Shown here: in pieces, positions 5,976 through 53,971 of the stretch
Numbering within the stretch: the first letter of the stretch is position 1
Layout of the letters: each line of letters begins with the position of its first letter
DNA from: an uncultured Clostridia bacterium
GTDB lineage: Bacteria; Bacillota; Clostridia; Oscillospirales; Ruminococcaceae
Direction of reading: 5' to 3'
Length of the DNA: 64,000 bases
Assembly: GCA_946567425.1 (NCBI GenBank)
Contig: CAMNXF010000006.1
Coordinates: 62,001 to 126,000, forward strand
The notes under the pieces: model-generated
The model's input: only the letters and a program-made list of their open reading frames with translations
Database searches by the model: none
What the model was told of the DNA's origin: nothing
Position numbers and translations under genes: made by a program

Positions 5976-6058
5976 CTTAAAACCTATCCAACAATACAAA
6001 TATCAGCAGAAAAATATAAGGGGTGATAAAAATAGAGAAAAGCTATAAATCATGGACA

Positions 6059-6439
6059 ATTTCGGGAGCCAATGTCCACGATACTCAGCTTCTTTAAATA
6101 ACGCTTAATAATATAGTAACTGAACGCCCGGATTTTAACGAATATGTTCAAAAAATATGTCTTGACGCGGGTTATACAGGATATTACGATAAGTGTGCAA
6201 AGTACGGGTATGTTGTCCATATCAAACCGCGCGGCGAAGAGAAAAAAGAAATTGAAATCGAGCCGGACTTTAAAGCTCGCCGCCGGGTTGTGGATGTTGT
6301 GCATTCCCGGATAAACAGGTTCAGAAAACTTCTTATTCGTTTTGAGAAGAAAGCTGACAAATATCCGGGTCTGCTTTGCCTGCGCCGTTTTTGTTTGGCG
6401 CAGATCGCTGCAAGTTCATCCGTAGTTATTGTTGGATAA
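6059..6439 (+). pseudogene. Remnant of an IS5-type DDE transposase (C-terminal part)
   Basis: Read in the frame ending at TAA 6437, the sequence gives SGANVHDTQLL, an in-frame TAA at 6095, then IVTERPDFNEYVQKICLDAGYT, VVHIKPRGEE, RRRVVDVVHSRINRFRKLL and IRFEKKADKYPGLLCL. These are the end blocks of IS5-group transposases: the GAN-HD region, CLDxGY, RGEE and the C-terminal glutamate region, where the usual VVERTHSWLNRFR has become VVDVVHSRINRFR, so the catalytic Glu is changed too. The N-terminal half is missing and no terminal inverted repeats were seen. It is an inactive fossil directly downstream of the orphan permease. Confidence 0.8.
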
Positions 6440-6570
6440 TCTCTTAATAATAGCAGAATCAGAGATTTTTTCACCCCCTTTAGTGTTCGCAGATTTTTTT
6501 ATATGATTTTTCAGGAAATATGTGTTAGAATTAAAACATAACAAAAAGCGAAATGAAAGGAATGAACGTG

Positions 6571-7800
6571 ATGTTTGTACATAAGACCGACGACGGCGCG
6601 CCGATAAAGATATGGCAGTCGGATATGGGAGCAATAGAGGAGAGCTGCTTAAAGCAGGCGGAAAATCTTTCGCGCTTGCCGTTCGTATATAAATGGGTAT
6701 CCCTTATGCCCGACACGCACGCGGGCAAGGGTATGCCGATAGGCGGCGTTATCGCCTGCGACGGCGTAGTCATACCGAACGCGGTCGGCGTGGATATCGG
6801 CTGCGGAATGGCGTTTGTGCAGACGAACGTTCCCGCGGCACTGCTCCGTGAGACTATGACCGGCAGCGGTAATCTCGTACAGGCGATCTGCGGCGATATT
6901 CTCCGCAATATCCCGACGGGATTTAACCGCTACAAAAAAACGCAGCCCTCCGCAGTTCTCGACAAGGCAAAAGAACAGGGCGAAAAATATGAGTTTGACA
7001 AGGAGTTGTTGCCGCAGATAGACGAGGGCTATTTTCAGGTCGGCACACTCGGCGGCGGTAACCACTTTATCGAGCTTCAGGAGGACGAAAACGGTATGTG
7101 CTGCATAATGCTGCATTCGGGAAGCCGTCACTTCGGAAACGTTGTCGGGCAGTACTTCAATAAGATAGCCCGCGCACTCAACGACAAGTGGCACTCAAAA
7201 GTGCCGTCGGAGTGGAATTTGCCGTTCCTGCCCGTCGATACCGACGAGGGGCGGCGCTATCTTGAGTGGATGCAGCTTTCAATGGATTTCGCCTACGAGA
7301 ACCGCGCGGTAATGCTCGCAAAGATCAAGGAAACATTCACGAGATACGCGCTGAAATACCTCAATGTTGAGCCCGAGTATTCCTGTGAGATCAACTGTCA
7401 CCACAACTACGCGGCTATTGAGAACCACTACGGCAAGAACGTTTACGTTCACCGCAAGGGCGCTATACGGGCGCGCGAGGGCGAGCTTGCCATTATCCCG
7501 GGCGCTATGGGGTCGTTCAGCTACATAGTCCGCGGAAAGGGCGAGGAAATGAGCTTTATGTCCAGTTCGCACGGCGCGGGGAGAGCGTACTCGCGGACGG
7601 CGGCAGTCGCCAATTTCTCCGTGGAGAGCGTAATGTGCGACCTCAAGGAGCAGAACGTCGTGCTAGCGAAGCACAACAAAGCCGACGTCGCCGAGGAATC
7701 GCGGTTTGCTTACAAGGACATAGATCAGGTAATGGCAAGTCAGACCGACCTTACCGAACCCGTGAAAAAGCTGTTTACAATAGGGGTGGTCAAGGGATAA
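6571..7800 (+). CDS. rtcB: RtcB-family RNA ligase
   Basis: RtcB joins RNA 2',3'-cyclic phosphate or 3'-phosphate ends to 5'-OH ends, using Mn and GTP, and repairs cleaved RNAs such as tRNAs. Seen here: MPDTHAGKGMPIGGV, NAVGVDIGCGM (metal-binding Cys), GTLGGGNHFIEL, HSGSRHFGN, NCHHNYA, and SSSHGAGRAYSR containing the His that is guanylylated. Length of about 409 residues fits the short RtcB branch. AAAGGA at 6556-6561 sits 9 bases before ATG 6571, so that start is chosen over 6553 and 6562, which are too close to it. It opens a locus with an RNA array and a Ro60-like protein. Confidence 0.95.
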   Translation: MFVHKTDDGAPIKIWQSDMGAIEESCLKQAENLSRLPFVYKWVSLMPDTHAGKGMPIGGVIACDGVVIPNAVGVDIGCGMAFVQTNVPAALLRETMTGSGNLVQAICGDILRNIPTGFNRYKKTQPSAVLDKAKEQGEKYEFDKELLPQIDEGYFQVGTLGGGNHFIELQEDENGMCCIMLHSGSRHFGNVVGQYFNKIARALNDKWHSKVPSEWNLPFLPVDTDEGRRYLEWMQLSMDFAYENRAVMLAKIKETFTRYALKYLNVEPEYSCEINCHHNYAAIENHYGKNVYVHRKGAIRAREGELAIIPGAMGSFSYIVRGKGEEMSFMSSSHGAGRAYSRTAAVANFSVESVMCDLKEQNVVLAKHNKADVAEESRFAYKDIDQVMASQTDLTEPVKKLFTIGVVKG

Positions 7801-7821
7801 ACGGAACGGCTCTGATTTGAT

Positions 7822-7884
7822 ACGGCTCGAACAGCAAAAAAATCCTCCATTATCGGGAAACGGCGGAACGCCCCAACGAGCCGT
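7822..7884 (+). ncRNA. Array element A: structured RNA with ACAGCA box
   Basis: The closing helix is ACGGCTCG (7822-7829) with CGAGCCGT (7877-7884), 8 bp perfect. The ACAGCA box is at 7831-7836, just inside the 5' strand. An inner hairpin GGCG-GAA-CGCC lies at 7862-7872. The 3' strand abuts the GAAAGGA ribosome binding site of the next gene, so it may also act as its leader. It is the only element on the rtcB side of the small ORF. Confidence 0.6.
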
Positions 7885-7898
7885 GAAAGGAAAAACAA

Positions 7899-8330
7899 AT
7901 GGAAAGCATACTGATTACCTCGCACAGGCAGTACTTGACATTGCTTGACGTTCTTGAAAAAAGAACGCGGACGATTGAGATAGTGCAGATATGCGGCGAG
8001 GATTTGGACGAACCGCTTATCAAGGCGGCTGTGCCGTTTCTTATAAAAAAAGAGGCATCCAACAAATGGCATGGCACAAAACAGGGCGGGCGCGGCTCTC
8101 CGAAATTCACGATACGTGCGGACAAAGAGGTTTTCAGGCACTTGCGCAAATATAAATGCTTCTTTTTCGCCGAAACGGATGAGAACGGTTTCAACAGCGT
8201 CTGCGAAACGGACTTCGGACTTGACGATATCGCGTTTCTCGACAGCGGCGGAGCGGCGCTTTTCTACACTACCACGCACGAGGGTTACGCATACATAGCT
8301 CCCGAGCTTTTAAGGGAACTTAACGGATAA
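7899..8330 (+). CDS. Unknown protein encoded between rtcB and the RNA array
   Basis: A soluble protein of 143 residues with a good ribosome binding site (GAAAGGA). It starts with a Rossmann-like MESILITSHRQYLTLLDVL and later has a basic, glycine-rich loop (KWHGTKQGGRGSPKF) followed by an aromatic stretch (KYKCFFFAETDENGF). No family was recognised. The basic loop would suit RNA binding, and the position between an RNA ligase and an RNA array makes an accessory role in the same RNP likely; that is inference. It is embedded between array elements A and B and is co-directional with rtcB. Confidence 0.75.
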   Translation: MESILITSHRQYLTLLDVLEKRTRTIEIVQICGEDLDEPLIKAAVPFLIKKEASNKWHGTKQGGRGSPKFTIRADKEVFRHLRKYKCFFFAETDENGFNSVCETDFGLDDIAFLDSGGAALFYTTTHEGYAYIAPELLRELNG

Positions 8331-8345
8331 CGGAATTACGAAATT

Positions 8346-8399
8346 ACGGCTCGTACAGTAGCAATATTTATTTCCTGCCAAGAAATATCGGTGAGCCGT
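8346..8399 (+). ncRNA. Array element B
   Basis: ACGGCTC (8346-8352) pairs with GAGCCGT (8393-8399). The box is the longer variant ACAGTAGCA (8355-8363), followed by an AT-rich inner hairpin, ATATTT with AAATAT. It is the shortest element, 54 bases, with no tRNA-like part. Confidence 0.6.
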
Positions 8400-8421
8400 G
8401 TACATGATGACATAAGCAAAA

Positions 8422-8507
8422 ACGGTGCATACAGCATTTAAAGAACCCCAAATAGTTCCGAAACGGAACGCTTTCGGGAATACCGGAAGGCTATTTGCGG
8501 GCACCGT
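8422..8507 (+). ncRNA. Array element C: cloverleaf-like RNA
   Basis: ACGGTGC (8422-8428) pairs with GCACCGT (8501-8507), a double compensatory change against element B. The ACAGCA box is at 8431-8436. Inside, CAAATAG (8449-8455) pairs with CTATTTG (8491-8497) and encloses two hairpins: TTCCG-AAA-CGGAA (8456-8468) and CTTTCGG-loop-CCGGAAG (8471-8489). The whole forms a branched fold of 86 bases. Confidence 0.65.
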
Positions 8508-8517
8508 GCATTTTATT

Positions 8518-8574
8518 AAGGCGCGTACAGCAGCGAGTTTAAATTTCATAACTATAATGAATTAAAAGTGCCTT
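8518..8574 (+). ncRNA. Array element D
   Basis: AAGGCGC (8518-8524) pairs with GTGCCTT (8568-8574) with one G-U. The ACAGCA box is at 8527-8532. The inner part is AT-rich with only an imperfect hairpin, so the fold beyond the closing helix is uncertain. Confidence 0.55.
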
Positions 8575-8602
8575 GTACAGAGTTTTTTCGGCGAACGACC
8601 AT

Positions 8603-8679
8603 TCGGCTCGTGCAGCATTATTTTGACGCGGAGTGCTCGTCGGCTTTTGCCGTTGGGTTCCGTATGAAAACCGAGCCGA
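8603..8679 (+). ncRNA. Array element E
   Basis: TCGGCTCG (8603-8610) pairs with CGAGCCGA (8672-8679), 8 bp perfect. The box reads GCAGCA (8612-8617). Inner hairpins are GACG/CGTC (8625-8641) and CGGC-TTTT-GCCG (8641-8652). A following GGTT...AACC (about 8656-8672) could be a decayed T-arm, but the loop is too long to be sure. Confidence 0.6.
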
Positions 8680-8704
8680 GTAACGGTCTGAATTTTATTC
8701 GTGA

Positions 8705-8803
8705 ACGGCGCACACAGCAAATATTTATGAGTGTCGCGGGTTCGATTCCCGCCGAAGCGTTTGCTTCGTAGCTCAGTTGGCAGAGCATCGCCAAATGCGC
8801 CGT
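8705..8803 (+). ncRNA. Array element F: YrlA-like RNA with circularly permuted tRNA module
   Basis: ACGGCGCA (8705-8712) pairs with TGCGCCGT (8796-8803), and ACAGCA is at 8714-8719. Inside is a permuted tRNA. The T-arm is GCGGG (8736-8740), TTCGATT loop (8741-8747), CCCGC (8748-8752). The acceptor helix is CGAAGC (8753-8758), closed by GTTT, with GCTTCG (8763-8768). Then come T-A at the tRNA 8/9 positions (8769-8770) and a D-arm GCTC, loop AGTTGGCA with the GG pair, GAGC (8771-8786). There is no anticodon arm and no free 3' end, so it is not a tRNA. Bacterial YrlA Y RNAs are known to carry such a tRNA mimic; placement beside a Ro-like gene supports that reading. Confidence 0.8.
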
Positions 8804-8827
8804 GTTACGATTTGACGAACACATATT

Positions 8828-8899
8828 TCGGCGTTGACCGCATTATTTCAGGGGAACGGAGATGGGGCTTCGGCTTACCGCCGTTAAAAACGGCGCCGA
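8828..8899 (+). ncRNA. Array element G (least certain)
   Basis: TCGGCG (8828-8833) can pair with CGCCGA (8894-8899). The box is the divergent ACCGCA (8837-8842) followed by TTATTT as in element E. A strong inner hairpin, GCCGTT-AAA-AACGGC (8880-8894), competes for one base of the closing helix. Confidence 0.45.
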
Positions 8900-8905
8900 G
8901 TTTAT

Positions 8906-8991
8906 AAGACAGCAACTGCAATATGAAGATTGGTTACTGCGGGTTCGAATCCCGCCGCTTCGGAGCGATCCGTTGAGGAAAACGCTGTCTT
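8906..8991 (+). ncRNA. Array element H: second RNA with a tRNA-like T-arm
   Basis: AAGACAGC (8906-8913) pairs with GCTGTCTT (8984-8991), and ACAGCA (8909-8914) overlaps the helix. A perfect T-arm, GCGGG-TTCGAAT-CCCGC (8939-8955), runs straight into a 4-bp hairpin CGCT-TCGG-AGCG (8956-8967), in the place of a loop-closed acceptor helix. TCC-GTTGA-GGA (8969-8979) may stand for the D-arm. The 3' strand abuts the AAAGGAG site of the DUF2828 gene. Confidence 0.7.
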
Positions 8992-9006
8992 GAAAGGAGA
9001 ATTGAA

Positions 9007-10470
9007 ATGCTTAATTTTATTAACAACGAAATGAATAAGACTTATACGCTCAACGGTGCGGTAACTAACCGCACAAGCGGCTCGTTCTGCCTTGATCTGT
9101 TCTTCCGCGCGGGCGCGATGCGCTCGGCTTCGGAGGAGGAGATCGCGGCGGCGGTCAGCCGCGCCTACGCGGAGGATCCTGTTAAGACATTGAAGATCGT
9201 TTTTTTCGCGCGTGACGCTAGGGGCGGTCTCGGCGAGCGCCGTTTCTTCCGCGCGGCGGTAAAGGCGCTTGCGTCGTTTGCGCCCGCGGCGGTCGAGAGA
9301 AACGTTCCCTTGTTCGCGGAGTATGGCAGATACGACGACCTCTGCGCGCTGCTCGGCACCCAGTGCGAGAGCAAGGCGGTAGAGGTTATCCGCGAGCGGC
9401 TGAACGGGGACGTAAAGGCAATGGAGAACGGCGGTCAGGTGTCCCTGCTTGCGAAGTGGCTGCCCTCGGTGAACACATCCTCCGCTGCCGCAAGAGCTAA
9501 CGGGAGAACGCTCGCAAAGCGTCTCGGCTACACTGAAAGGGCGTACCGTCAGACGCTGTCCAAGCTGCGCAAGTACTCGGACATTCTCGAAAACCGTTTA
9601 CGCGAGCGCGACTACACGTTCGACTACGAAAAGCAGCCCTCATGCGCGATGTTCAAGTACAGGAAAGCGTTTATGCGCAACGACAACGAGCGGTACACTG
9701 AGTTCCTGAACGCTGTAAACAGCGGCGAGGCAACGCTCCGCGCGGGCGCGCTGTTCCCCTATGACATAGTGCGCGCCTGCCTTGGCGCGGAGATATCCGA
9801 GCAGGAAAAAGCCGCGCTCGATACCACTTGGAGAAATCTTCCTGTTTACGGCGAGGGCGGCAATGCTATCACGGTGATCGACGGCTCGGGTTCAATGACA
9901 TACGCGCCCCGTCAGAGCGTGAGACCCATTGATGCGGCGCTGTCGCTGGGCATCTATTTCGCGGAGCATAATACGGGAGCGTTCGCAAACCACTTCATCA
10001 CGTTCTCGGCAACTCCCCGTCTGGTGGAGATCAAGGGTAAGGATATCGTTGAAAAGACTCGTTTCTGCGCAACGTTCAACGAGATAGCGAACACCAACCT
10101 TGAGGCGACGTTCCGTCTGATACTCTCGGCGGCGGTCAACAACAACGTAAAGCAGAGCGAAATGCCCGAGCGTATGTACATCATCTCCGATATGGAGTTC
10201 GATTATTGCGTAACAGGCGGCAATGACGGTACGCTTTTCGACACGATGAAGGCGCTTTACGCCGAGCACGGCTACAAGCTGCCCGAGGTGGTTTTCTGGA
10301 ACGTAAACAGCATTCAGGAGAACTTCCCCGTGAAGATGTCGGATACAGGCGCGGCGCTGGTTTCGGGCTTCTCCCCCGCGATCTTCGATATGGTCATTGG
10401 CGGCGAGATTTCCCCCGAGATCATAATGAACAAGGTTATCGAGAGTGAGCGTTACGCGGCGGTAAGCTGA
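9007..10470 (+). CDS. DUF2828-family vWA protein (Ro60/TROVE relative)
   Basis: A soluble protein of 487 residues. The N-terminal half is helical and repeat-like with the DUF2828 signatures KIVFFARDARGGLGERRFF, KWLPS, YRQTLSKLRKY and FKYRKAFMRND. The C-terminal half is a von Willebrand A domain with the MIDAS motif DGSGS near residue 292 and a later SDMEFD. DUF2828 is regarded as a relative of TROVE, the Y-RNA-binding ring of Ro60. Ro60 binds misfolded RNA and Y RNAs and works with nucleases in RNA quality control. Next to rtcB and the RNA array it is the best candidate for the array's protein partner. AAAGGAG precedes ATG 9007. A terminator follows. Confidence 0.88.
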   Translation: MLNFINNEMNKTYTLNGAVTNRTSGSFCLDLFFRAGAMRSASEEEIAAAVSRAYAEDPVKTLKIVFFARDARGGLGERRFFRAAVKALASFAPAAVERNVPLFAEYGRYDDLCALLGTQCESKAVEVIRERLNGDVKAMENGGQVSLLAKWLPSVNTSSAAARANGRTLAKRLGYTERAYRQTLSKLRKYSDILENRLRERDYTFDYEKQPSCAMFKYRKAFMRNDNERYTEFLNAVNSGEATLRAGALFPYDIVRACLGAEISEQEKAALDTTWRNLPVYGEGGNAITVIDGSGSMTYAPRQSVRPIDAALSLGIYFAEHNTGAFANHFITFSATPRLVEIKGKDIVEKTRFCATFNEIANTNLEATFRLILSAAVNNNVKQSEMPERMYIISDMEFDYCVTGGNDGTLFDTMKALYAEHGYKLPEVVFWNVNSIQENFPVKMSDTGAALVSGFSPAIFDMVIGGEISPEIIMNKVIESERYAAVS

Positions 10471-10491: not shown

Positions 10492-10516
10492 ACCTCCCGC
10501 AGTCGGTGCGGGAGGT
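10492..10516 (+). terminator. Terminator of the rtcB-RNA-DUF2828 locus
   Basis: ACCTCCCGC (10492-10500) pairs with GCGGGAGGT (10508-10516) around a 7-base loop, followed by CTTGTGTTTATT. It lies just past the convergent EAL gene's stop and may serve both strands. Confidence 0.7.
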
Positions 10517-53870: not shown

Positions 53871-53883
53871 AAAAATTTCATTT

Positions 53884-53962
53884 CCGCTTTCCCTACGACG
53901 GTATTGACCGACAGGTTCAAAGGGTTGGACAGCGTCCTCTCAACTCCCATGGAGTACCCCCA
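53884..53962 (-). promoter_or_regulatory. TPP riboswitch (THI box)
   Basis: Read on the minus strand it has GGGGGTACTCC, then GAGTTGAGAGGA, ACCCTTTGAACCTG and GTCGTAGGGAAAGCGG, which are the conserved helices and loops of the thiamine pyrophosphate aptamer. With TPP bound, the terminator stem next to it should form and shut off the operon. This puts not only thiD and thiC but every gene between under thiamine control. Confidence 0.95.
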
Positions 53963-53971
53963 GCAATATAT

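Follow-up and report, generated by a model that had tools for sequence, protein, structure and literature searches.

What is made from a locus in which an RNA ligase gene and a DUF2828/vWA gene bracket a row of short RNA-like elements, each different from the next? We address this question in a 64,000-nt stretch of Ruminococcaceae (Clostridia) DNA, hereafter the window (assembly GCA_946567425.1, contig CAMNXF010000006.1, positions 62,001-126,000, forward strand), where an earlier note, made from the letters alone, had proposed a Ro-type ribonucleoprotein (RNP) locus. The elements prove to share a covarying handle and to differ in their inserts, a number of these inserts carry recognizable tRNA parts, and such arrays accompany DUF2828 genes in other bacteria and in phages. 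The DUF2828 protein and its handle-sharing RNAs very probably form an RNP, and we favor with modest confidence the whole statement of a Ro-type RNP whose interchangeable RNAs act as tRNA baits or decoys.

A row of RNA elements with a common handle

All genes and RNA elements of the operon lie on the plus strand, as had been noted earlier, in the following layout:

6485..6531, plus strand: conserved promoter/operator-like motif GTTCGCA-N-TTTTTTT, its 3' end a TTAGAAT box (box by eye)
6553..7800, plus strand: rtcB, RNA ligase (PF01139, E 5.4e-111)
7822..7885, plus strand: RNA element A, closing stem ACGGCTC/GAGCCGT plus ACAGCA (strict scanner)
7899..8330, plus strand: small open reading frame (ORF), accessory insert in the array, without match in Pfam, PADLOC, NCBIfam or PHROG
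8346..8400, plus strand: RNA element B, core ACAGTA (strict scanner)
8422..8508, plus strand: RNA element C, branched insert (strict scanner; folding z -3.8)
8518..8575, plus strand: RNA element D, insert kin in five loci (strict scanner)
8603..8680, plus strand: RNA element E, core GCAGCA (strict scanner; folding z -3.7)
8705..8804, plus strand: RNA element F, YrlA-type permuted tRNA module (T arm, acceptor-like hairpin, D arm)
8828..8900, plus strand: RNA element G, core ACCGCA (strict scanner)
8906..8992, plus strand: RNA element H, T-arm-bearing insert, core ACTGCA rather than ACAGCA (located by hand)
9007..10470, plus strand: DUF2828/DUF7788 protein, predicted Ro60 fold (helical ring plus vWA with a metal-ion-dependent adhesion site, MIDAS)
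10492..10516, plus strand: terminator-like hairpin, operon end (10 pairs, 7 G-C)

Each element follows one plan: a 7-base stem, two bases, the core ACAGCA (variants ACCGCA, GCAGCA and ACAGTA), an insert, the complementary stem and a G. The strict scanner recovers seven of the eight, element H being added by hand; all eight elements first described are thus present, although not in an unbroken row, as A precedes the small ORF and seven follow it. These seven, B to H, fill most of the spacer from the small ORF to DUF2828 (538 of 676 bases). In the window spacer the scanner finds seven matches against a shuffle mean of 0.0 (50 shuffles) and none antisense, and in the remaining 62,823 b of the window four on the plus and three on the minus strand. 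Folding of single sequences (z -1.1 to -3.8; B, at z -1.3, D and G not significant) is moderate support, and the decisive evidence is comparative.

For that comparison the motif was derived from the window and ten kin loci and then applied to 80 bacterial loci fetched later, the best 80 of at least 558 confirmed candidates; one of the first ten (L015) was dropped because it appears to be the same contig as L026 with the same elements, which leaves 90 loci. Upstream of DUF2828 the 80 loci hold 300 sense and 3 antisense elements in 187,657 b, a tally to be read against a scanner that also returns chance and overlapping matches, at a flanking rate of about 12 per 187 kb (685,474 b of flanks, with 40 matches on one strand and 46 on the other). 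At least one element lies upstream of DUF2828 in 78 of the 80; across the 90 loci the median is four and the range 0-10, with three or more elements in 73 loci and none in two. Ruminococcus flavefaciens FD-1 (L039) and R. albus AR67 (L038) have five each. A core's own stem pairs in 322 of 402 cases, against a mean of 57 and a maximum of 71 when stems are swapped in from other loci.

Element F aligns over its full length with the Rfam family YrlA (RF02553; 56.8 bits, E 6.5e-12) and its kin score 43.9-53.8 bits, all below the gathering score of 69; none of the other window elements matched YrlA over its length. In the nine YrlA-type sequences, seven of them from bacterial loci and two from phages, both sides have changed in 14 of 22 pairs and 94.3% of cells are paired; neither 500 shuffles nor six slid versions come near this in a single case. 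The handle's 100% pairing in this set is in part selection, because most of these elements came from the scanner, which demands handle pairing; the T-arm helix, which lies outside the scanner rule, also covaries (3 of 5 pairs), and in the D-arm helix of the nine sequences no pair has changed on both sides. The check set out in the earlier note, that the paired strands be conserved in related genomes, thus came out in its favor, and both the alignment and the covariation identify element F as a permuted tRNA-like module of T arm, acceptor-like stem and D arm.

Beyond the handle the inserts diverge: by BLAST, 222 of 344 are singletons, an upper bound because BLAST can miss kinship among short inserts. 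Inserts like that of element H form a cluster spanning 18 loci, the insert of E has kin in L013 and L014, and that of G in L012, L013 and L014. At the place of element A, L012 has a tRNA-Phe-like anticodon arm (by eye). Element B holds an anticodon-arm-like hairpin, ATTTC-CTGCCAA-GAAAT (anticodon GCC), and its L014 counterpart keeps the same five stem bases under the loop CTGTCAC (Asp GTC).

The position of the array, directly 5' of the DUF2828 start in most bacterial loci and with its last element often ending 15-60 nt away, would suit an untranslated leader that controls DUF2828 or rtcB, T-box-like or as an attenuator, rather than a set of free RNAs. We consider such a leader very unlikely: the number of elements runs from 0 to 10 and their inserts vary freely, rtcB stands between array and DUF2828 gene in L095 and L104, and the elements lie downstream of the DUF2828-family gene in one mycobacteriophage and one Escherichia phage.

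The DUF2828 protein and the company it keeps

The window protein matches PF11443 (E 8e-33) and DUF7788 (vWA-like, E 2e-45), which bears out the DUF2828/vWA call of the earlier note; these are its only Pfam families at E up to 0.1, with no match to TROVE (PF05731). It also matches PHROG 850 'RNA-binding protein' (E 2.7e-134) and has no PADLOC or NCBIfam match. The predicted fold is that of the human autoantigen Ro60, a ring of helical repeats closed by a MIDAS-bearing vWA domain; this likeness comes only from fold comparison, as the DUF2828 profile matches no PDB sequence. The earlier view of DUF2828 as a TROVE relative therefore holds by predicted fold but not by Pfam profile; the window's genome (~92% complete) gives no TROVE match. 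The proposal that the protein is a scaffold for many Y-like RNAs has gained support from the predicted fold, the covarying handle, the differing inserts, the similarity of element F to YrlA and the occurrence of the elements together with and upstream of DUF2828. The elements have the Y RNA plan, in which paired 5' and 3' ends form a common handle around a variable inner module, and the protein would bind that handle, that is, the closing stem and ACAGCA.

The association holds at the level of genomes. DUF2828 occurs in 11 of 120 relatives and the element pattern in seven, all among those 11; the nine pattern matches are all at the DUF2828 locus, and the reversed pattern gives none. A similar pattern matches 2 of 398 genomes of the phylum, both among the eight with DUF7788, and of seven further DUF7788 loci of the phylum, read without the broken copy of G418, six have elements upstream. 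Nine genomes of the phylum have TROVE, and the eight TROVE loci examined show no such array, just scattered single matches; Y-type RNAs with a different core (GGGTTACTTCG type) are present in six of them, one to three per locus, a seventh (L164) shows two by eye, and in L166 none was seen.

The RNA ligase gene, correctly named in the earlier note, is a frequent neighbor: the pairing of a Ro-type locus with RtcB holds for the window, but just 46 of the 90 loci have rtcB (34 copies upstream, 14 downstream), and its two types share about 26-29% identity in the comparisons made. Of the rtcBA operon's members RtcB is present, and RtcA and RtcR are absent among the scanned recurrent neighbor clusters, no genome-wide search having been made. 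WYL-type regulators occur in 61 of the 90 loci, with both members of a pair in 52; their families were called from one example per cluster, with Pfam WYL above and WCX just below its cut-off and PADLOC WYL for both. The motif GTTCGCA-N-TTTTTTT is found 45 times on the plus strand and never on the minus strand of the 90 loci (1,054,009 b), in 42 of the 86 loci with at least 700 b upstream, and its distance to the next element is 55-65 nt in 18 of 40 cases; in the window, rtcB comes first. A generic promoter scan gave results near the shuffle average, and the 6485 motif was not among its calls. The region 6000-6470, 5' of rtcB, has no recognized gene, and many kin loci have a WYL-type pair upstream.

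Relatives of the DUF2828 protein of viral contig L022 are common in phages (682 of 50,697 phage records), where the matches listed are mostly filed as hypothetical or RNA-binding protein. In 77 of 80 IMG/VR loci (L177, L182 and L189 were left out) we find 74 sense and 0 antisense elements in 152,656 b, with at least one element upstream of DUF2828 in 31. Six of ten named phages carry elements:

Bacillus phage FADO: 4 elements
Listeria phage P100: 3 elements, with a tRNA splicing ligase nearby
Enterococcus phage VRE9_3: 2 elements (one long, doubtful)
Mycobacterium phage Clautastrophe: 3 elements
Escherichia phage skuden: 4 elements and one long distant match
Bacillus phage BcoS-136: 8 elements

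The scanner finds none in Fusobacterium phage Fnu1, Aeromonas phage Ah1 and Enterococcus phage EF1, and the single antisense match in Vibrio phage R10Z looks like chance. In VRE9_3, skuden and BcoS-136 the elements stand among annotated tRNA genes, and the ten stretches have no annotated RNA partner other than tRNA.

tRNA parts and their possible use

Many inserts are tRNA parts, anticodon arms among them, a feature absent from the earlier note. The window's genome has 36 tRNA matches, of which 30 supplied the reference for the inserts: 27 kinds of tRNA with 28 anticodon loops. When inserts above 130 nt are left out, the commonest hairpin loop is 7 nt (137), followed by 4 nt (89); 116 of the 137 have U at the second place and 38 are T loops. 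An exact reference anticodon loop on five Watson-Crick pairs is present in 26 of 344 inserts (shuffles 0.07, maximum 2; antisense 1), at a rate of 1.38 per kb against 0.0106 per kb in flanking DNA, where a few of the matches belong to ordinary tRNA genes. T arms by a strict rule are found in 51 inserts (shuffle 0.2), strict anticodon arms also in 51 (shuffle 0.95, maximum 3) and one or the other in 98. Among the 74 viral elements 12 have anticodon arms (shuffle 0.66, maximum 3), seven of them with a loop identical to a reference loop (Lys-TTT three times, Ser twice, Arg twice; none in shuffles or antisense). The more generic U33/R37 loop pattern is nearly symmetric between the strands (151 sense and 146 antisense with at least four pairs, 95 and 90 with five), so that we rejected antisense as its control and relied instead on shuffles and on loops identical to those of tRNAs. 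A loose pattern for D arms gave a weak signal (29 inserts against 4.6 in shuffles) and was set aside.

The loops are kept as their stems vary: CTGAAAA sits on seven stems, CTGTCAA on five and CTGTCAC on four, the last two together on eight different stems. Conversely, one stem carries two identities, Asp in L044 and Glu in L033 and L042. The insert anticodons comprise GTC (12), GAA (9), TTC (4), GCC, TGA, TAA, TTT and CAT (3 each) and others. Whole tRNA bodies serve as inserts in L084, L092, L095, L096 and L099; by eye, their acceptor stem is short and they lack a CCA end. Two related loci carry tRNA-type genes in equivalent positions between elements, L103:5794-5869 (GAA, with a CCA end) and L105:471-543 (TAA). 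A tRNA-Ser(GGA) gene follows DUF2828 shortly in L167, L168 and L169 (related genomes), perhaps an integration site.

Such tRNA-like pieces, together with tRNA genes called by ARAGORN between the elements of L103, L105 and L099, could be taken for degenerate tRNA genes or repeats without function. Against relics of this kind stand the 14 of 22 pairs changed on both sides, the strand bias (300:3 in bacteria, 74:0 in viral loci) and the association with DUF2828; because of the covariation and the strand bias we regard them as exceedingly improbable.

We propose instead that the array is transcribed into separate RNAs, each of which, held by its handle on the DUF2828 ring, would show outward something different, in many cases a piece of tRNA (an anticodon or T arm, a permuted tRNA or a complete tRNA body). 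We think it most likely that the inserts are baits or decoys for enzymes that cut or otherwise attack tRNA, such as anticodon nucleases of rivals, of phages or of the cell's own defense. RtcB would seal the tRNAs, or the decoys, that have been cut, and in the many bacterial loci that have it the WYL-type regulator pair may sense the damage and turn the operon on. The same kit in phages, several times beside tRNA genes, would suit counter-defense. A decoy role accounts for the exact anticodon loops, for their variety and switching, for RtcB and for the phage elements next to tRNA genes.

Alternatively, the inserts could be tethers in the style of Ro60 and its Y RNAs, each bringing another RNA- or tRNA-binding enzyme (PNPase, modification enzymes, RtcB or the CCA-adding enzyme are candidates) to the DUF2828 ring for the decay or repair of damaged RNA, with no decoy role. 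In the description given in PMC8394870, YrlA tethers PNPase to Rsr; element F is YrlA-like, the predicted protein fold is the same and most inserts have no strict tRNA arm. We nevertheless think the adaptor reading the less likely of the two, as by itself it explains neither the exact anticodon loops on changing stems nor the switch of identity on a single stem.

Several observations weigh against the decoy interpretation or its generality. Strict T or anticodon arms are absent from 246 of the 344 inserts, which limits the mimicry shown to a minority of them, and the diversity of the insert anticodons points to no single nuclease specificity. The Salmonella YrlA was not cut by the nuclease studied, as the account drawn on here has it (PMC7790460). 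Good flanks on either side are available for 25 of the 44 loci that lack rtcB, and the WYL pair of the window's genome is on another contig. By the scanner, 2 of the 80 bacterial loci, 46 of the 77 viral contigs and 4 of the 10 named phages have no clear element, and the viral flanks (650,890 b, both strands) yield 73 matches.

A further step would be to see in these arrays a varied stock of tRNA and anticodon decoys that share a protein-binding handle, a new kind of RNA-based immunity or counter-immunity of bacteria and phages whose elements are swapped and re-lettered one by one in an arms race with anticodon nucleases, with a Ro60-fold holder and RtcB for repair; this joint claim is tentative, and we would not yet bet on it. 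If true, the decoy reading would connect Ro60 RNPs with RNA repair and with immunity aimed at tRNAs, and would suggest a role for the tRNA-like part of Y RNAs. The system could be tested in element-bearing laboratory phages (Bacillus subtilis FADO, Escherichia skuden) and in cultured Ruminococcus.

Known systems and remaining features

The DUF2828 system works like Ro and its Y RNAs and is neither TROVE by profile nor YrlA by score. With the Salmonella Ro60/Rsr-YrlA rtcBA operon it has in common the ring and vWA fold (predicted here), a modular RNA with a paired-end handle and tRNA-mimic middle, and, in about half of the loci, the RtcB neighbor. In contrast to Ro60/Rsr, the protein is of the DUF2828/DUF7788 family, and up to 10 RNAs accompany it per locus; the handle core ACAGCA likewise differs from the GGGTTACTTCG-type core of the Bacillota TROVE loci examined. 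The tRNA-like domain of YrlA is described as resembling D, T and acceptor arms (PMC8394870), whereas the DUF2828 arrays also hold anticodon arms, and where rtcBA is described as regulated by RtcR (PMC7790460), WYL-type regulators adjoin the DUF2828 loci. Competitive inhibition of a nuclease by the tRNA-like domain of YrlA has been raised as a possibility by Hughes et al. (PMC7790460). A TROVE locus, L161, is a canonical-type Ro locus with three Y-type RNAs (6500-6760, minus strand). Anticodon arms are present in two of the three (TCTGA-CTTAGGA-TCAGA and TCTGA-CTTGAAA-TCAGA), so that mimicry of anticodons may extend to true Ro60 systems.

Among phages, mycobacteriophage records annotate the same protein family (PHROG 850) as 'Ro-like RNA binding protein', to which our data add array elements in six of ten phages, an RNA partner that is unannotated there. 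The jumbo-phage ROT/TROVE protein (PMC7824862) is similarly a phage-borne Ro-type protein, considered together with RNA repair and a tRNA-like partner, but in the portion of that account considered here it is TROVE with one tRNA-like partner known from cells, not DUF2828 or arrays. The tRNA-Tyr of phage T5 acting against retron-Eco7 (PMC11555353) offers a parallel in pitting a tRNA-type RNA from a tRNA-rich phage region against a tRNA-targeting defense; there, as far as that source was drawn on, complete tRNAs are thought to replace lost ones, whereas DUF2828 elements are mostly partial mimics with a common handle. By titles and the starts of abstracts, among the matches listed, we found no description of a DUF2828 RNA array in the open-license literature, where the DUF2828 papers found are all on plants. 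The kit of bacteria and phages has the appearance of an RNA adaptor or decoy system not described before.

As to the rest of the locus, the small ORF, which the earlier note had left without assignment, indeed belongs to no family in the four libraries searched; a copy 74% identical is present in L014, L012 has no match and in L013 apparently only its two ends remain (by eye). The strong terminator noted earlier at the operon end is matched by the terminator-like hairpin at 10492-10516, but the terminator scan as a whole stays near the shuffle average (7 found, 5.8 expected). ARAGORN calls zero tRNA genes in the window. At gathering score, the sole Rfam match in the whole window is a thiamine pyrophosphate (TPP) riboswitch at 53872-53971 on the minus strand (64.1 bits).

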